Origin: Francisella adeliensis
Lineage (GTDB): Bacteria; Pseudomonadota; Gammaproteobacteria; Francisellales; Francisellaceae
NCBI RefSeq assembly: GCF_003290445.1
Contig: NZ_CP021781.1
Span: forward strand, 248,001 to 312,000
DNA: 64,000 bases
Direction of reading: 5' to 3'
Positions 49,117 to 58,750 of this stretch are shown piece by piece. The position numbers and the translations under genes are program-made. Numbering within the stretch: the first letter of the stretch is position 1; each line of letters begins with the position of its first letter. A model generated the notes under the pieces. It was not told the origin of the DNA. It did not search any database and worked only from the letters and a program-made list of their open reading frames with translations.

Positions 49117-49537
49117 GGGGGCGAATATGGTTTCGACATGAATGTCAAAGTCTTAGGTGCATGCCGAGGAAGTACAGTACCTCGCTAATAACAGTACAAT
49201 GCCTATATAACTGGCAACAAAAAAGCAAACCGCGTAGCGGCTAACGACAACAGCTTTGCAGCTGTTGCTAAAGCTGCCTAGTCTAGCTTAATAACCTAGA
49301 AACGCACGGGTATGATGGGCTTTCTTATGAGGCTGTCTATACATCCGTTCATCTTTTACATAAGATGGTCATTTGCTTTAAGTCTGGAAGTAAATGACTG
49401 TACTAATCAGACTCGCTAACTTTTACCCTGACTAACTGGGGAAAAGCCAAGCTAAACACTAAATGAGTTGGTCTAAGCATGTAGATCCGAGGATGAAGAG
49501 TTTATGGACGCGGGTTCAAGTCCCGCCGCCTCCACCA
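49117..49537 (+). ncRNA. ssrA: tmRNA (SsrA)
   Basis: Ribosome-rescue RNA of 421 bases. The tRNA-like ends pair: GGGGGCG (49117-49123) with CGCCTCC, then ACCA up to 49537; the T-arm GGGTTCAAGTCCC is present. The tag frame runs GGC at 49213 to TAG at 49279-49281 and codes 22 residues starting GNKKANRVAAND and ending AAVAKAA. Pseudoknot stems surround it. The 3' end is the attachment site for an integrated element, and the last seven bases TCCACCA are supplied at this junction only. Confidence 0.97.
49520..49530 (+). repeat. attL core in ssrA
   Basis: GTCCCGCCGCC at the tmRNA 3' end recurs exactly at 55556-55566 and 57314-57324. It marks the left edge of the integrated satellite. GCTATTTCAAGCAGTTTCA follows at 49541 and again directly after the middle copy. 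Confidence 0.85.
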
Positions 49538-49624
49538 CAAAGCTATTTCAAGCAGTTTCATAAAGCCCCACAAACCCTTTAAAAACAATGATTATAGCCA
49601 TTTTTATGGTTTTATACAGTCCCA

Positions 49625-49701
49625 ATACATACCAATAAAGCCCTTGTAAATATACATACTATAATACATACTAGATACATAATCACTAAATGAGTATGTA
49701 T
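49625..49701. repeat. Candidate integrase arm sites, left end
   Basis: ATACATACC/T occurs at 49625-49633, 49652-49660 and 49664-49672, and its complement AGTATGTAT at 49693-49701, just before int. Matching ATACATACT copies lie at the right end (55489-55497; 57235-57243 and 57247-57255). This is the pattern of arm-type sites for a tyrosine recombinase. Confidence 0.5.
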
Positions 49702-49703
49702 TT

Positions 49704-50954
49704 ATGGCTATTAAAATCACTGATAGTAAGGTAAAGAGCTTAAAATACAAAGATATAAAAAGTATGTCTTTAGGCGATAGATTAAACATAAAAATAGATA
49801 AAAACGATAATAAGTATTTTTTCTATCTATACACTATCAACGGCAAAAGAACTACTATAGGTATTGGAAGCTATCCCGCAATAAGTCTAAAACAGGCGAG
49901 AGATGAGGCGTTTAAATATAATCAGATGTTAGCAAGTGGTAAAGACCCGAAATTAGAAAAAGCTAAAGCAAAGTATCAAGATGGCAATATTTTTGAAATA
50001 GTCGGAAATAAAGCACTAGAAACTAAACACCCTAGCAAGCCACACGGTTGGAAAAGTGAAGAGGTTTATACTAGGAATTTATCTATATACAATAGATTTA
50101 TACTACCAAGCTTAAAAACTTTTGATATAAAAGAAATTGAGCCATACCAAATAGCGGGGATACTAGAAGCTACTACACCTAGCTATCAAAGAAAAATCAA
50201 AAACTTACTAAATATTATTTTCAACTATGCAGTTGGTAAAGGTATTACTAGATACAACATTGCTAGAGATATACAAGCGGAAAAAGAAAGCCCTAAAGGT
50301 TTTGAATTTATACACCCGACAGAAGACAGATACAACTTTAGTAAATTACTAAATGATATTGATACCTACAAAGGACAATATAATACAGCCATAGCTTTAA
50401 AACTAGCCGTATTAGTCGGTTTTAGACCAAGTAATATAGTAGGTATGAAATGGGAAGACATACAAGAGGCTAATATAGATGGTAAAAAAATACCTTTTGT
50501 ATTTATATCCGCTGATAATATGAAAATGAGTAGAGATTTTAGACAGCCATTAAGTAAACAGGCTTATAAATTACTAATGGAAATAAAAGAATATAACGGC
50601 GGTTTTGAGTATGTATTTCACTCATTAAGTAAGAAAAAGCATATTACTATTGAGAGCCTATCAAAGGCTTTGAGAGATACACTAGCCTACAATGGTACAG
50701 ATAAACCAAAACAACATACACACGGCTTTAGAAAGTCAGTTAGAACATATATTAGCACTATCAGAAGTAAATATAACTGGAGTGATGACAGTATAAGAAT
50801 GATATTAAGCCATAGTAAAGAAAATGCTATAGATAACATCTATGATAAAAACGATTTTATAGCAGAGCGTAGTCAGATGTTACAGCTATGGGCTGATTAT
50901 GTAGATGATGTTAAAGCTAATAGTAATATTATCAATATGGATAATGTAAGTTAG
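49704..50954 (+). CDS. int: P4-type tyrosine integrase of the ssrA element
   Basis: The 416-residue recombinase has an N-terminal DUF4102-like arm-binding domain (GKRTTIGIGSYPAISLKQAR), a core-binding SAM-like domain, and a catalytic domain with Arg in LAVLVGFRPSNIVGMKW, HGFRKSVRTY (HxxR), LSHSKENAIDNIYDKND giving the His and the Tyr nucleophile. It starts 167 bases after the tmRNA end and points away from it, the usual layout for elements in tRNA/tmRNA genes. It should catalyse integration at ssrA. Confidence 0.94.
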   Translation: MAIKITDSKVKSLKYKDIKSMSLGDRLNIKIDKNDNKYFFYLYTINGKRTTIGIGSYPAISLKQARDEAFKYNQMLASGKDPKLEKAKAKYQDGNIFEIVGNKALETKHPSKPHGWKSEEVYTRNLSIYNRFILPSLKTFDIKEIEPYQIAGILEATTPSYQRKIKNLLNIIFNYAVGKGITRYNIARDIQAEKESPKGFEFIHPTEDRYNFSKLLNDIDTYKGQYNTAIALKLAVLVGFRPSNIVGMKWEDIQEANIDGKKIPFVFISADNMKMSRDFRQPLSKQAYKLLMEIKEYNGGFEYVFHSLSKKKHITIESLSKALRDTLAYNGTDKPKQHTHGFRKSVRTYISTIRSKYNWSDDSIRMILSHSKENAIDNIYDKNDFIAERSQMLQLWADYVDDVKANSNIINMDNVS

Positions 50955-50964
50955 ATTTTAAAGG

Positions 50965-51024
50965 TTAGCATTGTCTAGGTTCACTACCGAAAGAACACCG
51001 CCCAAGTGTTTTGGCAATGCTTAA
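50965..51024 (+). other. Structured region after int
   Basis: TTAGCATTG (50965-50973) pairs with CAATGCTTAA (51015-51024, one bulge), enclosing an inner hairpin AACAC/GTGTT (50994-50998 with 51006-51010). It lies between int and the next gene and may be a terminator-like or regulatory RNA structure. Confidence 0.35.
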
Positions 51025-51053
51025 TATTTTGGGGATACTTTGGGGGTATTGGT

Positions 51054-51815
51054 TTGTCAAATAACAAAGCTAAGTTTTTATTATCAAAGAAATATTTAAA
51101 TGTTAAAGATATTAGAGAAGTTTTATTATTGCATGACATAGATTTAGATATTGAGCAAATTATAGATTGGATAGAACAAAGTCAAAAATCATATATAAAG
51201 CCAAGAGATTGGACTAGTTTAGATGTAAGTAATTTCTATCATACCGCTAAAGGTTTTCAACATTTAACGCTAACAGATATGCTAAATGAACAAAAGGATG
51301 ATTTTTTAAAGGCAAATTATACTAAAGATGATGAAACTTTTAATAACAGTCATTTAGAGATAGCTTACATTTTCAAGATAGCTGATTATATAGCCAATGT
51401 TACTGAATATACAGAATGTCCCGAACACCTTAGAGAATATAGCTATAAAGATAATATTTATTTAGAAAAAAGAGTATCTACTTATGATGAGCTAGCTAGT
51501 ATTTTTTATACAAAATCTAGTTTTATCAAAGAGTATTTAGATAGTTTACAAGACCACCAACCAAAGTCAGCTACTAATCAAGATGATAGCTATAAATATA
51601 GTGAAGCTTTGAACCCATACAATGATATCATCTGGGCTTTTGAAAATGAAAGTAAAGAGTACGAAAAGTACAAAAATACCATTACAAAAGAAGTTATTAG
51701 AGATGAGTTAAGAATTAATTATAAAAAGCTACTATCTAGCAATGAAAAAGCAGAGTTTGTAGCTGATTTAATAATGGAACACTATAATATACCTAAAGGT
51801 AATCGTAAGAAATAG
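51054..51815 (+). CDS. Unknown protein of the satellite
   Basis: I take TTG 51054 as start because GGGGG (51042-51046) is at right distance and the residues upstream are Trp/Gly-rich and improbable. The 253-residue protein is soluble and acidic, largely helical: VKDIREVLLLHDIDLDIEQI, then SHLEIAYIFKIADYIANVTE, and a Lys-rich C end (EFVADLIMEHYNIPKGNRKK). No motif I recognise. Position between integrase and AlpA, where satellites carry regulators or interference genes, is the only hint. No start ATG fits well, so the N-terminus is uncertain. Confidence 0.6.
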   Translation: MSNNKAKFLLSKKYLNVKDIREVLLLHDIDLDIEQIIDWIEQSQKSYIKPRDWTSLDVSNFYHTAKGFQHLTLTDMLNEQKDDFLKANYTKDDETFNNSHLEIAYIFKIADYIANVTEYTECPEHLREYSYKDNIYLEKRVSTYDELASIFYTKSSFIKEYLDSLQDHQPKSATNQDDSYKYSEALNPYNDIIWAFENESKEYEKYKNTITKEVIRDELRINYKKLLSSNEKAEFVADLIMEHYNIPKGNRKK

Positions 51816-51821
51816 GTTTTA

Positions 51822-52011
51822 ACCTCCGAACTTTCAAAGCTATATATATCAATACTTTTAGCCATACTTCCGAACTATATTTTAATAAGCTTCCGATACT
51901 TCCAGAATATTTTACCCTTAATTTTAACCGTATCATTTATAGCAGATACCAACTAGAACCACTCAAAAAAAAGCGGTTTTAAAAGGTACTAATCTTTAGT
52001 TGCTGCAGCAA
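51822..52011. promoter_or_regulatory. Operator-like repeats upstream of the AlpA gene
   Basis: The 243-base gap holds CTCCGAAC (51824), CTTCCGAAC (51867) and CTTCCGATACTTCCAGA (51890), a repeated CTTCCGA word, and a perfect 12-base palindrome TTGCTGCAGCAA at 52000-52011, 48 bases before alpA. These look like binding sites for regulators of the satellite's replication genes. Confidence 0.4.
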
Positions 52012-52058
52012 TTAAAACTAAACATTAATTGATAACTAAAGGAAGAGGTTATAAAGAT

Positions 52059-52238
52059 ATGAAAATACTAAGACTACCACAAGTTATAGAGAAGACAGGA
52101 ACATCAAAAACAACTATCTATAGATGGATAAATGCTAATCAATTCCCGAGACCAATCAATCTTACCCATGCTAGTGTAGGTTGGTTGGAAGCTGATATAA
52201 ACGATTGGATACAGTCAAAAATAGAAGCGAGGGGGTAG
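52059..52238 (+). CDS. alpA: AlpA-like excisionase/transcriptional regulator
   Basis: A 59-residue winged-helix protein: KILRLPQVIEKTGTSKTTIY, then RWINANQFPRPI and GWLEADINDWIQSK. This is the AlpA family (MerR-like fold) found in P4-type phages and satellites, where it activates int or excision. ATG 52059 has a GGAAGAGG site upstream; the frame extends to 52029. It is 3 bases from the primase gene and leads the replication operon. Confidence 0.88.
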   Translation: MKILRLPQVIEKTGTSKTTIYRWINANQFPRPINLTHASVGWLEADINDWIQSKIEARG

Positions 52239-52241
52239 ACA

Positions 52242-53138
52242 ATGAATACGAGTAAATTTAATGGTTTTGTATCAGATTTAGGGTACTCATTGCCTAATAA
52301 CTTTAATTATAGCATAGGTATTGGCGAGCTTAAAAGGTTTAAAGATACTAATAAAAATAAACATAATGTAGATTTATGGCTACAGAATATTGATAATAAT
52401 ATCTTTGTCTTTGGCGATTGGAAAACAGGCGAGAAATACAATTATATAGATAATGACAATCAATATAATAGCTATGAGAAAAGAGCCTATAACAGCCAAG
52501 TATTGCAGCAACAAAAAAAAGCAGAGATGCAGAGCAAACAAGAGCTAGCAAGTAAGTTAGAGAGTTATTATTTATCACTATCAAATGCAGATGATAACCA
52601 CCCGTATTTAGTCGCTAAAGGTATAAAAAGCCATGAAGCTATAAAACAGGATGGCAATAAACTTGTAATTCCTTGTATTGGTATTAATGAGCCTTTTAAG
52701 GCTAAGCTACAGAGTATACAAACTATATTGCCTAATGGCTTTAAACAATTCTATAAAGGTGCTAATGCTAAAGATAGTTTTTTAATACTAAATAAGTCTA
52801 CTAATGAAAAGTTTATTTTTGTGGAGGGACTAGCAACTGGTTTAAGTGTTTTAAGGTTCGCACAAAGTCAAAAAGTAGACCGCTTATACAGTATAATAGT
52901 TTGTTTTAATTGTAATGGTTTAAAACCTATTGTTAGTTATTTTTATAGCTTATATCCTGAAGCTGAATTAGAAATATGGGCTGATAATGACAAAAGCGGG
53001 GTAGGGCTGAAAAAAGCTCAACAAGTTAAAGAAGTGTTTCCAAGTGTATATATCAATCCCCCACCGCTAACAGATGAGGAAAAACAAAACGGCTTGTCAG
53101 ATTGGAATGACTATATACCGACTATAGGAGAGTTTTAG
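52242..53138 (+). CDS. Toprim-domain primase-like protein
   Basis: The 298-residue protein contains, after an N-terminal part with a weak P4-primase-like pattern (HPYLVAKGIKSHEAI near residue 115), a Toprim domain: FIFVEGLATGLSVLRFA (catalytic Glu) near residue 193 and ELEIWADNDKSGVGLKKA (DxD) near residue 247, ending GLSDWNDYI. This arrangement is that of phage and plasmid primases such as P4-alpha N-terminal and RepB-like proteins. It probably starts replication from the downstream iteron region together with the DUF3987 ATPase encoded 3 bases later. Confidence 0.85.
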   Translation: MNTSKFNGFVSDLGYSLPNNFNYSIGIGELKRFKDTNKNKHNVDLWLQNIDNNIFVFGDWKTGEKYNYIDNDNQYNSYEKRAYNSQVLQQQKKAEMQSKQELASKLESYYLSLSNADDNHPYLVAKGIKSHEAIKQDGNKLVIPCIGINEPFKAKLQSIQTILPNGFKQFYKGANAKDSFLILNKSTNEKFIFVEGLATGLSVLRFAQSQKVDRLYSIIVCFNCNGLKPIVSYFYSLYPEAELEIWADNDKSGVGLKKAQQVKEVFPSVYINPPPLTDEEKQNGLSDWNDYIPTIGEF

Positions 53139-53140
53139 CA

Positions 53141-54607
53141 ATGAGCAATATTTTAGAAATGCAAAAAGAAATAGCAGAGGTTAAGCCTTTACCATTGCCA
53201 AGCGATAAAAAACAGCTACCAAGGTTTAATATTGATTGTTTACCTAAAGTTATAGCTGATTATGTAAGTAGTTTAGCTAATGCACATCAACAGCCAATAC
53301 AGTATATAGCTACATCTAGTTTAGTTAGTATAGCGGGATTGCTAGGAAATAAAGTTTGTTTAGATATTGATGATAGAAAAGCCTATCCTATTCTTTGGGG
53401 TATGCTAATAGGGGATAGTGGAACAGGGAAAACCCCTAGTATCAATGAACCTATGAAACCAATTAAAGAAATAGATAAACAGCTTTTAGATGATTATTTA
53501 AAAGACTATGCTAATTATCAAACAGCATTAGAGTTATACGAAATTGAGCTAAAGAAATTAAAGGCTAAGCTTAAAGATTGTAAAGATGAGCAAAAGCAAA
53601 GTATCAAAGGGGAAATAGAAGCATTTAAGAAGCTAAAACCAATAAAGCCATATTCTAGGGAAATATGTATAAATACAGCTACTAAAGAAGCCTTACTAAG
53701 TCAGTTAGCAGATGACAGCCCTAACGGTTTAATACTAGAAATTGATGAGTTGATGGACTTTATACAGTCAGTTATTAGAGCTGAAAAAATAGAAGACCAT
53801 AAACTATATGTAGAGGCTTACAATAATGGAAGTTTCAAAAGCAAAACAATATCTAGGGGTACTCAATATATAGATAATGTAACAATATCTATTATTGGCG
53901 GGGTACAAACTCAAAGACTGATAGATTTTACTAACAAATATAATGGTAGTGGCTTACTAGCTAGGTTTCAATTAATCCCTATAGCTGAAAAATACCAAAG
54001 AGAATATAAAGAAGCTAAATTAAGTTTTGATATAAAAAGTAGCTATGAGAACCTACTAAACAGCTTAAAACAAATTCCACAAAGGTTTAATATAGTTGAT
54101 AATGAAAAAGTCAAAACAGAGCCTAAAAAGTACAACTATACAAGTGAAGCCAAGAGATTATATATTGACTGGTTTAATAATATTGAAAAAGTAAAAAATG
54201 AGAGTGGGCAGAGTGATTTAATGATAGAGTATCTAGGTAAAGCTACTAATACTTTTCATGCTTTGGCTTTAATATATCATCTAGCAGATAATCAAGATAA
54301 CTACAATATAAACAAAGAAGTAGTACAAAAAGTTATAGCTACCTTAGAGTATTTTTATGATTGTGCTGATTATCTCTATGGCTATAATTTCAACAAATCT
54401 TTAGATTTAGCTAAAAAGATAGTTGATATAAAATCTAAACTGAACAACAAAAAAGGCTTTAGTATTGGCGACATTACTAGACCAACTAGTTATAGAAAGC
54501 TAGATAAAGAACTAGTACAAGAGGCTTTAGATATACTAGAGCAATATCATCATATTATAAAAACTGATAAGAAAGGTACTAAATATTATAAATATCATTG
54601 GCTATAA
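53141..54607 (+). CDS. DUF3987-family ATPase, replicative helicase-like
   Basis: The 488-residue protein has Walker A in MLIGDSGTGKTPSINEP near residue 93, a coiled-coil insertion (about residues 115-170), and Walker-B-like GLILEIDELMDFIQS near residue 203, with IIGGVQTQRLIDF as a sensor strand; the C-terminus is a winged-helix segment. DUF3987 proteins accompany primases in mobile elements and are thought to be helicases. With the Toprim protein it forms a two-piece counterpart to P4 alpha or PICI Pri-Rep. Confidence 0.82.
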   Translation: MSNILEMQKEIAEVKPLPLPSDKKQLPRFNIDCLPKVIADYVSSLANAHQQPIQYIATSSLVSIAGLLGNKVCLDIDDRKAYPILWGMLIGDSGTGKTPSINEPMKPIKEIDKQLLDDYLKDYANYQTALELYEIELKKLKAKLKDCKDEQKQSIKGEIEAFKKLKPIKPYSREICINTATKEALLSQLADDSPNGLILEIDELMDFIQSVIRAEKIEDHKLYVEAYNNGSFKSKTISRGTQYIDNVTISIIGGVQTQRLIDFTNKYNGSGLLARFQLIPIAEKYQREYKEAKLSFDIKSSYENLLNSLKQIPQRFNIVDNEKVKTEPKKYNYTSEAKRLYIDWFNNIEKVKNESGQSDLMIEYLGKATNTFHALALIYHLADNQDNYNINKEVVQKVIATLEYFYDCADYLYGYNFNKSLDLAKKIVDIKSKLNNKKGFSIGDITRPTSYRKLDKELVQEALDILEQYHHIIKTDKKGTKYYKYHWL

Positions 54608-54628
54608 TATCTCTATTTTCTAATTTCT

Positions 54629-54908
54629 TAACACATCTAACACATTAACACATTAACACATTAACACATTAACACATTAACACATTAACACATCTACCCC
54701 TAACACCCTTATTTTAAAGGCTTTGGCGTGTGTTACACTCTTAACACATAAAAAAGCAGATATAACACAAAACTATAAAATGGTAAGGTTTAGACAAGGG
54801 TATAAATAGTTGTGTTATTAACTGTGTTAGCAGTTACCACAACTGAAGCCCTTATGTATCAACGCTTTTAGCTATGTTGTGTTAATTGTGTTGGTTGTGT
54901 TAAGAAAA
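54629..54908. repeat. Iteron-like octamer repeats, candidate replication origin
   Basis: TAACACAT occurs at 54629-54636 and then as seven head-to-tail copies from 54638 to 54693. Further TAACACA words lie at 54742 and 54763, and TGTGTT(A) in the opposite direction at about 54811, 54823, 54878, 54886 and 54895. The 396-base gap between the ATPase gene and the terminase gene has no protein gene. Two arms of oppositely oriented initiator sites around an AT-rich centre resemble the origin (ori/crr) of P4-like satellites. Confidence 0.7.
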
Positions 54909-55003
54909 ATAAAAAAACACGATATCTACATCTAAAATTAGAGTATCATTACTCAATATAATTAAATGTTATAATTATATAAAAATAGATAATAATTGAT
55001 GAT

Positions 55004-55432
55004 ATGAATAAGCTAACATCTAAACAATTAGAGTTTTGTAAGTATTATTTGCAAAGCGGTTGCATGACAGAGGCATATATACAAGCTTATGACACCGAAA
55101 ACATGAAAGACCAAACAATACATAATGAAGCTAGTAAGCTACTCAAAAATGAGAAAGTAGCCGAGTTTATAGAGAGCGTACAAAAAAGAGAAATGCTAGG
55201 TACATTTAACACTAGACAAAAGTACTTAGATAAACTTGATGATATTATAGATAGTGATGATAGTAGCATGAGTGAAAAGATACAAGCTATTAATACAGTC
55301 GCTAAACTCAAACAATGGGATAAAAGAAAAGCAGGCTTACAAGTAGACTTTCAAGAGGAAAGCGATTTACTACAAAGAAGCCTAGCAACTGATATAGGTA
55401 GTTTTCATAGCTACCCTAGAAAAGATATATAA
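55004..55432 (+). CDS. terS: Small terminase subunit (TerS)
   Basis: The 142-residue protein starts NKLTSKQLEFCKYYLQSG, the N-terminal helix-turn-helix DNA-recognition domain of Terminase_2/TerS, followed by AYIQAYDTENMKDQTIHNEA and an oligomerisation region; the C-terminal tail ends GSFHSYPRKDI. TerS selects DNA for packaging. There is no large terminase, portal or capsid gene, so its presence suggests redirecting a helper phage's packaging. A second, internally deleted copy is at 57001-57178. Confidence 0.88.
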   Translation: MNKLTSKQLEFCKYYLQSGCMTEAYIQAYDTENMKDQTIHNEASKLLKNEKVAEFIESVQKREMLGTFNTRQKYLDKLDDIIDSDDSSMSEKIQAINTVAKLKQWDKRKAGLQVDFQEESDLLQRSLATDIGSFHSYPRKDI

Positions 55433-55488
55433 ACACCATTATTTTACCATTAGCTTTATGGTAAGATTATAAGGGTAAAAATAATAAG

Positions 55489-55566
55489 ATACATACTATA
55501 TCAAAATATAGCAAAAAAAATCTATATAGCACGGTGGTTGTAGGCGATAGTTTATGTCCCGCCGCC
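55489..55566 (+). repeat. Middle attachment site (right end of satellite 1 / left end of satellite 2)
   Basis: Ends in the core GTCCCGCCGCC (55556-55566). The 150 bases before the core are almost the same as those before 57324 (GCACGGTGGTTGTAGGCGAT in both), and the bases after it (GCTATTTCAAGCAGTTTCAC) match those after the ssrA copy. It is therefore a right end joined to a left end. The rest of the 352-base gap 55433-55784 has no gene. Confidence 0.8.
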
Positions 55567-55784
55567 GCTATTTCAAGCAGTTTCACAAAGTCCCGCAAAC
55601 CCATTTAATCAAGGTTATGACTGTTTTTTTATACAACATACTATGCAATATACTACTAAAAATAGTGCAACAAATGATGCAACTACAAAAAAATATAAGA
55701 GTTGATTAACCTATATAAATTACTTAAAGACTAATTGCATATAATTTGTTACGATTAAAAACTAGTGTTTAAAGAATGATTTAA

Positions 55785-56210
55785 ATGATTAAACTAATTT
55801 CAAGTTCAGATAATTGGGAAGTTTGTCAAATAGAGAAAAAAAGCATTTGGAGAGAACCAGAAGCTAAGCATTTTGATGGGTTTAATCTTTCCAAAAAGAA
55901 AGGTTTTTTCTCATCTGAAAACAAGAGGTATTTTAGGAGACAAGCTATAAGAGTGGTTACAATCAATGAAGATAATAGTAAATCTCTAGTAGGTACGGCA
56001 GGAGCTTCACTTGCAGGAGGCTTATTGCTTGGTGGTGTGGGTATGCTTGCAGGGGCTTTAGCTGGAGGTAAAAAAAAGACTATCAGAGTTGGTGTTGAAT
56101 TTAATGATGGTAAAAAAATTGTTTTTGAAGAAAACTCAAAAGACCAACCGTTTATAGCTTTTTTAAAATTTGCAGAAGAAATACAAGCAACAAAAACTCT
56201 AGATTTTTAG
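55785..56210 (+). CDS. Glycine-zipper protein of unknown function (cargo)
   Basis: The 141-residue protein has an aromatic/charged N-terminal half (WEVCQIEKKSIWREPEAKH), a glycine-zipper hydrophobic stretch at about residues 71-94 (GTAGASLAGGLLLGGVGMLA) that could span or insert in a membrane, and a beta-rich end (IRVGVEFNDGKKIVFEE). No family recognised. It lies in the decayed second satellite, where it and the LysM gene are the only intact genes, so it may be cargo of benefit to the host. Confidence 0.6.
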   Translation: MIKLISSSDNWEVCQIEKKSIWREPEAKHFDGFNLSKKKGFFSSENKRYFRRQAIRVVTINEDNSKSLVGTAGASLAGGLLLGGVGMLAGALAGGKKKTIRVGVEFNDGKKIVFEENSKDQPFIAFLKFAEEIQATKTLDF

Positions 56211-56280
56211 GTATTAACAAATAAACTTCTTATTCTGAAGAGTTATAGTTGAATATTCGAGATTACCCTGTTTTTACACC

Positions 56281-56832
56281 TTATTTATAAGTTTCATGCT
56301 CATACCATCCTTCAACATAAGTACCTCTACTACCAGTTTCTTTTAGGTCGCATCCAAAATTTAATTTAGTTCCTTTAACAAGCCCTGAAACGCTTTTAGG
56401 TTTATCCCACATTATGTCAAGCTCTCCATTTCTTGATTTTATAGAGTTTAAACATTGACTCATTGAACTAAATTCACCGTATAAGTTTTCTTTAATTTTT
56501 TCTTTCTTATTAACTTTGCGATAATCACTTATACATCTTTTAATTTTGGCAGTACTATTCGATATATTAGAATAATTATTTTCTAAATCTTGCTTTGATG
56601 TTGGTAGTATTAATTTGTCGCCTTTATTTATTTTGTTTTTAACTATTTCTGGATAGTTATTCTTATTGATATTTATTATATTATTTGTTCTCTCAAAAAT
56701 AGAGGTTTTTGGTATACTATTTTCTTTTCCTAGATTATAAAGGAAATCTCCATCTTTAACTGTATATGTACAAAATGAAAAAGCGAAGCTTGATTCTAGT
56801 AATACTAGACAAAATATTATCATTTTTTTCAT
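56281..56832 (-). CDS. Exported LysM-domain protein (cargo)
   Basis: From ATG 56832 the 183-residue protein has a signal peptide (KKMIIFCLVLLESSFAF), then one LysM domain (YTVKDGDFLYNLGKENSIPK to KINKGDKLILP) for peptidoglycan binding, and a C-terminal domain with four cysteines or so (RCISDYRK, MSQCLNSIK, NFGCDLKE) and GTYVEGWYEHET at the end. A TTG at 56844 is an alternative start. It is convergent with the glycine-zipper gene within the second satellite. Could alter the cell wall, for instance to limit phage, but that is speculation. Confidence 0.72.
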   Translation of the reverse strand: MKKMIIFCLVLLESSFAFSFCTYTVKDGDFLYNLGKENSIPKTSIFERTNNIININKNNYPEIVKNKINKGDKLILPTSKQDLENNYSNISNSTAKIKRCISDYRKVNKKEKIKENLYGEFSSMSQCLNSIKSRNGELDIMWDKPKSVSGLVKGTKLNFGCDLKETGSRGTYVEGWYEHETYK

Positions 56833-57000
56833 ATTATCGTTCAAAAAAATAAATAGACTTTAAACATAAACCATGGTGCTATTTAAATCAAGTATCCATA
56901 TTAAAATTTTATTTTCCTTTACACTTTTATATTAAAAATCAACCAACCTAACAGCTGATATAATTACTAGTATTAAATTTGTTCTATTATTAATCTATGG

Positions 57001-57178
57001 CTACTAAACTAACATCTAAGTAATTAGAGTTTTGTAAGTATTATTTGCAAAGCGGTTGCATGACAGAGGCATAAGAGCAGGCTTACAAGTAGACTTTCAA
57101 GAGGAAAATTATTTAATACAAAGAAGACTAACAACTGATATAGGTAGCTTTCATAGCTACCCTAGAAAAGATATATAA
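57001..57178 (+). pseudogene. Truncated second terS copy
   Basis: Sequence begins CTAACATCTAAGTAATTAGA, nearly identical to the terS start at 55010 but with a TAA in place of the CAA codon. It matches to CATGACAGAGGCAT, then jumps to AGCAGGCTTACAAGTAGACT near the terS end and follows it to the stop at 57178. About 250 bases are missing. The 170 bases before it (56833-57000) show nothing but AT-rich DNA. Confidence 0.88.
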
Positions 57179-57234
57179 ATACCATTATTTTACCATTAGC
57201 TTTATGGTAAGATTATAGGGGTGAAAATAATAAG

Positions 57235-57324
57235 ATACATACTAATATACATACTATATCAAAATATAGCAAAAGAAAGCTATATAGCACGGTGGTTGTA
57301 GGCGATAGTTTATGTCCCGCCGCC
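57235..57324 (+). repeat. Right attachment end (attR) of the tandem satellite
   Basis: Repeats the right end of satellite 1, including two ATACATACT arm-like words and GCACGGTGGTTGTAGGCGAT, ending in the core GTCCCGCCGCC at 57314-57324. Chromosomal sequence (AAAAATTATTCAAATAAG) follows. The TCCACCA that completes tmRNA at the left is missing here. Confidence 0.8.
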
Positions 57325-57376: not shown

Positions 57377-58750
57377 ATGAACAAAACAAACTTTTCAGAT
57401 CTTTCTTTATCGAAAGAAATGCTTCATAACCTTAATGAAATTGGCTATAAGCAAATGACTTCAGTACAAGCAAGCACACTGCCACATATATTAGAAGGTA
57501 GTGATGTGATTGCTCAAGCAAAAACAGGTAGTGGTAAGACAGCTGCTTTTGGTATTGGGCTTTTGGCTAAACTACAAGTTAAAAAATACCGTGTACAAAC
57601 ACTAGTTTTATGTCCAACAAGGGAGCTTGCTGATCAGGTAGCTAAAGAGCTGCGTGCCTTAGCTAGATTTACGCATAATATCAAAATTCTAACGCTTTGT
57701 GGTGGTGTGGCTTTTCGTCCACAAGAAGAATCTTTGCGTCATGAAGCTCACATAATAGTAGGTACACCAGGGCGAGTGCTAAAACACCTTGATAAAAACA
57801 CTCTAAACTTAAAAGATGTCGATACTTTGGTTTTTGATGAAGCTGATAGAATGTTAGATATGGGCTTTATTGATGATATTGAGAAAGTTTTAACATACAC
57901 TCCTAAAAATAGACAAACCCTACTTTTCTCAGCAACTTATACTGATGAAATCATTGCTATAAGCGATAAAGTTCAAAGCAATGCTATAAGTGTAAAAACT
58001 ACAGATATAGAAGTTGCCAATAAAGTTACTGAAGTATTTTATGAAGTAAAGATTGCTAGCAAACTCAAAACTTTAATTAATGTACTTGGTACTTATCAGC
58101 CAGAAAATGTAATTATATTTACAAATACTAAAGTAGAAGCAAATGAGCTAGCACAAAGCTTAAAAAACCACAATATAGACACTTTAGCAACACATGGTGA
58201 TCTTGAGCAGTATGAAAGAAATGATGTGCTTGTGCAATTTGCTAATAAAAGCTGTCGTGTACTTATTGCTACAGATGTTGCTGCTCGTGGATTAGATATC
58301 AAAGAGCTAGCAATGGTTATAAATTATGATATTCCTTATAATGAAGAAACTTATACTCACAGAATAGGCAGAACAGCTAGAGCTGGCGAGGAAGGTGTAG
58401 CTATATCTATCTATAATTCAAATAGATCTTTTAAAGCTCTTAATTATCAAAATGAAACACGTAGATATGAAGACTCAAGTGCTTTAGAAACTACTCCTGA
58501 CTTTGCGATGAAGCCGATATATAAAACTCTTGTAATTGAAGCTGGTAAAAAAGATAAGCTCCGAGCAGGAGATATATTAGGTGCTTTGACTGGTGATGTT
58601 GGAATTGCAGGAAAAGCTATTGGTAAAATAGATATTTATGATAAACAAAGTTATGTAGCTATTGATCGAGCCTTAATTAATTCAGTTCATAAAAAACTTT
58701 CTAATGGTAAGATTAAGGGTAGAAAATTCCCTGTGTGGATTTTGAAATAG
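57377..58750 (+). CDS. dbpA: DbpA, DEAD-box RNA helicase
   Basis: The 457-residue helicase has Q-motif (GYKQMTSVQASTLP), motif I AQAKTGSGKT, PTRELADQV, DEAD, SAT, and the second RecA domain with ATDVAARGLDI and HRIGRTARAG. The C-terminal 75 residues (GDILGALTGDVGIAGKAIGK) are the DbpA RNA-binding domain, which targets hairpin 92 of 23S rRNA during 50S assembly. It is the first chromosomal gene after the satellites. Confidence 0.94.
   Translation: MNKTNFSDLSLSKEMLHNLNEIGYKQMTSVQASTLPHILEGSDVIAQAKTGSGKTAAFGIGLLAKLQVKKYRVQTLVLCPTRELADQVAKELRALARFTHNIKILTLCGGVAFRPQEESLRHEAHIIVGTPGRVLKHLDKNTLNLKDVDTLVFDEADRMLDMGFIDDIEKVLTYTPKNRQTLLFSATYTDEIIAISDKVQSNAISVKTTDIEVANKVTEVFYEVKIASKLKTLINVLGTYQPENVIIFTNTKVEANELAQSLKNHNIDTLATHGDLEQYERNDVLVQFANKSCRVLIATDVAARGLDIKELAMVINYDIPYNEETYTHRIGRTARAGEEGVAISIYNSNRSFKALNYQNETRRYEDSSALETTPDFAMKPIYKTLVIEAGKKDKLRAGDILGALTGDVGIAGKAIGKIDIYDKQSYVAIDRALINSVHKKLSNGKIKGRKFPVWILK

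Follow-up and report, generated by a model that had tools for sequence, protein, structure and literature searches.

In Dehalococcoides, tandem islands lie downstream of ssrA, each bounded by a repeat of the ssrA 3' end, and 15 islands without an integration module have been read as possible cis-mobilizable elements (PMC3146451). A review of IMEs sets out a model of three steps in which integration is followed by decay to a CIME and then by a new integration (PMC5704250). The Islander study describes a deletion starting 3 bp upstream of the discriminator, the same as that reported below, and counts 148 islands with damage (PMC4383910). The HE-PICI paper notes such damage within its set for PICIs only and suggests a possible role similar to that of an addiction module (PMC10111431). 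The accounts consulted here list Pro, Thr, Sec, Ser and Ile2 as targets damaged in this way, without Leu. In the genus considered here, an integrative prophage at tRNA-Val has been described (PMC7924643, PMC5861138). Our literature search, with most subscription journals outside its coverage, found no paper on ssrA satellites in this genus.

The locus analysed here lies in a stretch of 64,000 nucleotides from Francisella adeliensis ("the window"), whose host genome (G000) is closed and 2.05 Mb long. Behind the 3' end of ssrA follow an intact-looking satellite (~49531-55566, "el1") and a second, older and decayed satellite (55567-57324, "el2"; Table 1). We consider it very probable that el2 is the relic of a TerS-type satellite at ssrA, later joined by the related el1, which pushed it downstream. 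The case illustrates how satellites stack and decay at ssrA, for which our search found no earlier report in this genus. Comparisons were made with one genome per species, using a genus set of 17 genomes (G000 included) and an order set of 33.

Table 1. Features of the ssrA locus and its two elements (window coordinates).
Feature	Position	Strand	Basis
ssrA (tmRNA), integration target	49117..49537	+	ARAGORN
Attachment core GTCCCGCCGCC inside ssrA, el1 left end	49520..49530	+	repeat count
el1 left-end sequence common to el2	49542..49583	+	pairwise alignment
el1 int, tyrosine integrase, Arm-DNA-bind_3 and Phage_integrase domains	49704..50954	+	Pfam 3.2e-18 and 5.5e-15; PHROG integrase 2.4e-38
el1 269-codon frame, relatives in other satellites of the set	51006..51815	+	Pfam/PHROG scans, comparison with satellites
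el1 alpA-type regulator	52029..52238	+	Pfam Phage_AlpA 2.3e-19
el1 primase, Toprim_3-like	52242..53138	+	PHROG DNA primase 3e-27
el1 DUF3987 helicase-type replication protein	53141..54607	+	Pfam DUF3987 1.3e-57; PHROG helicase 3.8e-36
el1 iteron-like cluster, candidate origin, absent from el2	54628..54902		heptamer count
el1 terS, intact terminase small subunit	55004..55432	+	Pfam Terminase_2 6.4e-12; PHROG 7.3e-15
el1 right end, terminates in core GTCCCGCCGCC (55556-55566)	55481..55566	+	alignment, core count
el2 left end, joined directly to el1 core, without the 11 bases TCCACCACAAA that follow the core at the el1 left end	55567..55608	+	alignment
el2 left-flank 12-base-period repeat, possible degenerate integrase arm sites	55630..55655	+	weak; resembles el1 49652-49681, pairwise homology not significant
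el2 cargo 1, 141 codons, glycine-rich middle	55785..56210	+	frames, Pfam/PHROG, shuffles
el2 cargo 2, 187 codons (183 from ATG), signal-peptide-like start	56281..56844	-	frames, relatives, shuffles
el2 5' fragment of terS, codon 9 being a stop	57005..57073	+	BLAST/alignment
el2 3' fragment of terS, beyond the 250 bases deleted in comparison with el1	57073..57178	+	BLAST/alignment
el2 right end, 12-base insertion, terminates in core GTCCCGCCGCC (57314-57324); the adjoining host DNA lacks TCCACCA	57179..57324	+	alignment

The 11-base core is present in three copies in the window (chance mean 0.00), and in the whole 2.05-Mb genome it is confined to the same three places. At the middle junction, 55481-55566 is 95% identical to 57239-57324 over 86 nt, and 55567-55608 resembles 49542-49583 at 88% over 42 nt ungapped (a one-gap alignment gives 90%, E 2e-9 to 2e-10), which bears out the proposal of the earlier note that a right end is joined here to a left-end sequence. 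The left-end similarity is secure for these 42 bases only; an extension of the homology to int was dropped because 174 of 500 shuffles reach the pairwise score beyond them, and a repeat with a 12-base period is the sole hint of it. As an arm-site motif, ATACATACT proved unusable alone (42 hits with at most one mismatch, 34.7 expected).

The similarity at the distal end is far from limited to the attachment site, and terS is not a single inherited gene, since two diverged copies are present. The start of terS differs at three of 69 positions (57005-57073 compared with 55009-55077), after which exactly 250 el1 bases are absent from el2 and the frame is shifted as well; 57073-57324 then follows 55327-55566 with one 12-base insertion. 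BLAST E values of el2 against the terS/right end of el1 are 7e-99 and 3e-27, and, of the 309 bases compared, 17 differ between the copies (5.5%, with one base counted in two segments), which gives the divergence that the earlier note had asked for. A chance repeat is ruled out by E values down to 1e-98 together with the restriction of the core to three places in the genome. The stop at codon 9 results from a change of AAA CAA in el1 to AAG TAA in el2. In the 3' part, six of seven changed codons are nonsynonymous, as expected for a dead gene. The earlier description of 57001-57324 as a repeat of both ends of terS and of the right end, with a 250-base deletion and an early stop, holds except at its very beginning: the homology begins at 57005, and the context of the start codon differs.

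The organisation of el1 is that of a complete satellite. Its int, alpA and primase/replication genes share the + strand and a rightward order, as a putative single transcription unit, and terS stands alone, without phage structural or lysis genes, among the six el1 frames scanned. Between helicase and terS lie 15 of the 16 copies of the heptamer TAACACA in the window, in both orientations; about eight of the 15 form an 8-base tandem array, and the cluster resembles an iteron origin. In the corresponding area, 4+4 copies are found in a tRNA-Leu satellite of genome G016 (G016b) and 3+2 in G015. None of eight proteins scanned against NCBIfam scored above the curated cut-off. A phrog_2 search of the host's own genome for a terminase large subunit, as a sign of a resident helper, gave no convincing match; the best (E 1.3e-4, weak) is read as an unrelated ATPase. 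Plasmids contain no match to 49538-57324, and viral contigs none to the el1 helicase and primase; TerS matched 39 distant loci in viral contigs, and no TerS relative was confirmed in the broader genome contig collection.

In el2, matches to el1 proteins are confined to the two terS pieces. Neither int, alpA, primase, helicase nor the iteron cluster was found in el2, and its terS is broken, so that it is no PICI as defined by int, alpA, replication genes and an intact terS. That these genes are missing from the distal element agrees with the earlier note; that they were once there is argued from the relatives. Three satellites at tRNA-Leu (G016b, G012 and G002) are collinear with el1 in the order int-alpA-primase-helicase-terS, with 1.5-2.5 kb of additional sequence separating helicase from terS, the very slot in which the two genes of el2 sit, just before terS. 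This is our main ground for suggesting that el2 would formerly have possessed int, alpA and replication genes. A close relative of el2 with its replication genes retained was not found among the genomes searched.

Stacking at ssrA is not confined to this genome. In the genus set, ssrA was found in 17 of 17 genomes, an integrase match in 12 and a TerS match in five, and a satellite or remnant touches ssrA in six of the 17. In G000, G001, G004, G013 and G016, the ssrA element was recognised by an adjacent integrase match, and in G010 by an att-to-att piece of 139 bases. A second element behind the first is traceable in four of the six cases (G000, G001, G004 and G016): G001 has a second left end of 54 nt (96%) with cargo behind, G004 one of 32 nt (94%), and G016 retains part of the terS 3' end beyond its right core. 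None of 500 shuffles reaches the scores of the latter three, with thin margins for G004 and G016 (shuffle maxima of 60 against 64 and 76 against 86). The proposal of two related satellites in one ssrA site is thus supported by both ends, the terS remnant, the fitting cargo slot and the stacking in other genomes of the genus. Nothing like el2, alone or otherwise, was found in the 16 other genus genomes.

Several further loci deserve mention. On the reverse strand of G001 (L053, 10966-12100), the second left end is followed by a likely paralogue of one of the cargo genes in the first element and a membrane-protein-like gene, an arrangement that parallels el2. In G013 (L059), the satellite integrase and helicase at ssrA are badly decayed, with many stops. 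The 139-base piece lying directly behind ssrA of G010 (L057:1173-1322) consists of a satellite left end and right core only; it is either what an almost total deletion has left over or a minimal element running from att to att. The distal core of the window is followed immediately by a DEAD-box helicase gene (57377-58750) that has only short matches in the 16 other genus genomes, which indicates that the host side of the distal junction is not common to the genus.

Both cargo frames exceed chance, as the longest frame in 1000 shuffles of 55609-57004 measured 133 codons and a frame of 141 codons arose in none of them, in line with the earlier statement that el2 kept two intact cargo genes. Their intact length is no proof of selection, since the decay could be of any age. 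Cargo 1 matches only PHROG families without known function (best 1.2e-9) and has relatives neither in the 32 other genomes of the order set nor in the broader genome contig collection. Cargo 2 finds matches in 30 of 33 order genomes and a second one in its own genome; its first ~90 residues resemble the beginning of a protein of ~440 residues that is encoded on the chromosome in this genus and whose sequence suggests the LysM/FimV type. The satellite may have acquired this part from a host gene. PADLOC gave no defence-family match for the three proteins scanned (the 269-codon frame and both cargo products), and structure prediction for cargo 1 and cargo 2 reached a mean pLDDT of only 44.7 and 32.3, too poor for a fold search. 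We regard the two retained genes as candidates for host-adopted cargo.

The junctions themselves record a form of damage that provides insight into the order of events. The last seven bases of ssrA, TCCACCA (49531-49537), are nucleotides 70-76 of the acceptor as read from the acceptor strands. In el1, G010 and G013, which share this type of left end, the sequence is core-TCCACCACAAA-G. The middle junction reads core-GC and lacks the first 11 bases of the el2 left end; the distal junction reads core-AAAAATT, without TCCACCA. The break falls directly after acceptor nucleotide 69 at both G000 junctions, at ssrA of G001 (with a loss of two bases), G010 and G016, and at tRNA-Leu of G012, G016b, G002 and G015, the one-base loss of G015 lying within a run of G that leaves its exact place ambiguous. 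A deletion of the PICI type, starting 3 bp upstream of the discriminator, is accordingly seen in nine of the ten right-end copies found in the genus set, those at both G000 junctions included, the exception being an intact copy at tRNA-Ser in G011. Among 19 loci searched with a key whose last position was nucleotide 69, which copies damaged earlier would escape, seven yielded eight copies and ten yielded none; the G001 copy came from reading the locus, and the G011 copy from a separate search outside the key search. The tRNA-Leu fragments at the right ends of L091, L093, L094 and L097 lose bases after acceptor nucleotide 69.

Since this damage strikes the resident side of a new right end, and 11 bases are gone from the left end of el2, we infer that el2 was inserted first and el1 arrived later. 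The order of insertion goes beyond the earlier note and is read from the junction damage. Integration damage that eats into the left end of a resident offers a clean means of ordering insertions.

We also have to consider that el2 may never have been a second satellite, if a tandem copy of the terS and right end of el1 arose within one element and a piece of unrelated DNA, from the host or foreign, brought two genes in between the copies. The terS and right end are indeed the most similar parts of the two elements, and upstream of terS the homology ends within the first codons. However, the block opens with a copy of the left end, which lies where it should, immediately behind the core, and the 11-base loss at the middle junction begins at the published damage site. 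The copies moreover differ at 17 of 309 bases, the left ends by about 10%, and second left ends occur in relatives too. We therefore regard such a duplication as very unlikely.

As improbable, and if anything more so, seems the view that el2 is a working minimal passenger, MITE- or CIME-like, moved by the el1 integrase and packaged by way of the kept terS ends, which may hold a packaging signal. It would account for the retention of both ends with their core, the persistence of 12-base-period repeats at both ends and the intact cargo frames, and the 139-base piece at ssrA of G010 would be in keeping with it. No second copy of el2 was seen, however, nor any in the 16 other genus genomes; in addition, its left end is without its first 11 bases, and terS decays freely, to judge from the six nonsynonymous changes among seven changed codons. 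The decayed satellite relic remains our preferred interpretation.

According to this interpretation, a TerS-type phage satellite, el2, would have integrated at the 3' end of ssrA and deletions would subsequently have removed its integrase and regulator as well as its replication genes and origin. Its terS would have been wrecked by deletion, stop and frameshift, both ends and two passenger genes being kept. The related el1, whose terS/right end differs by 5.5% from what el2 retains of it, would then have entered the regenerated ssrA 3' end, and el2 would have moved one step downstream. Tyrosine integrases recombine cores, and el1 Int would do likewise; it could still excise el1 alone or el1 and el2 jointly. 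Excision through the core would leave an ssrA that ends in GTCCCGCCGCC and lacks nucleotides 70-76, including U70 of the G3-U70 pair. A one-base loss at this place inactivates tmRNA in the case of CP4-57 of E. coli (PMC10107115), and by analogy excision might inactivate tmRNA here as well.

Excision need not be lethal, as the ribosome-rescue factor ArfT backs up tmRNA. ArfT has been reported for F. tularensis (PMC6299226). It is possible, although we consider it rather doubtful, that, whenever TerS-type satellites of this genus enter ssrA or tRNA-Leu, the 3' fragment they displace is as a rule destroyed at acceptor nucleotide 70 (in tmRNA the U of G3-U70). Each arrival would then lock in the element behind it, and el1 and el2 could leave only by breaking tmRNA. 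The stack would thus act as a one-way ratchet: elements at the distal end decay, the host keeps their cargo, and el2 would be a cargo-bearing end product. If the damage rule holds throughout the genus, loss of a satellite should inactivate tmRNA, so that excision and ribosome rescue would be connected, as they are for CP4-57.

The arrangement is of an already known kind, tandem accretion with decay to a CIME-like relic, and the described systems differ from it in their parts. CP4-57 shares a P4-type integrase at ssrA, and its excision deletes after the acceptor-strand CGCCAGC and inactivates tmRNA; it removes one base (T357), whereas excision through the core would here remove the entire TCCACCA (PMC10107115). 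Gram-negative PICIs resemble el1 in having int, alpA and pri-rep all rightward and, in some, terS; el1 is by its genes a candidate PICI, and el2 is without nearly all PICI genes (PMC6092414). PICI tandems at fis likewise comprise one short component in one site (17+3 kb, 15+2 kb), but the site is fis rather than ssrA and the integrase belongs to another clade (PMC10111431). The islands of Dehalococcoides are alike in forming tandems at ssrA with module-less members, and differ in their serine recombinases, in not being phage satellites and in a cargo that includes reductive dehalogenase genes (PMC3146451). A further parallel to el2 in its present state is the CIME. El2 has no integration or transfer genes of its own, and core and end sequences are found on both sides, although the left end starts 11 bases short and its core is that of el1. 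In CIME/ICE/IME accretion, too, integration genes are lost, attL and attR are kept and a complete element adjoins in one site; those elements are conjugative or mobilizable, whereas el2 is a derivative of a TerS-type satellite (PMC5704250).
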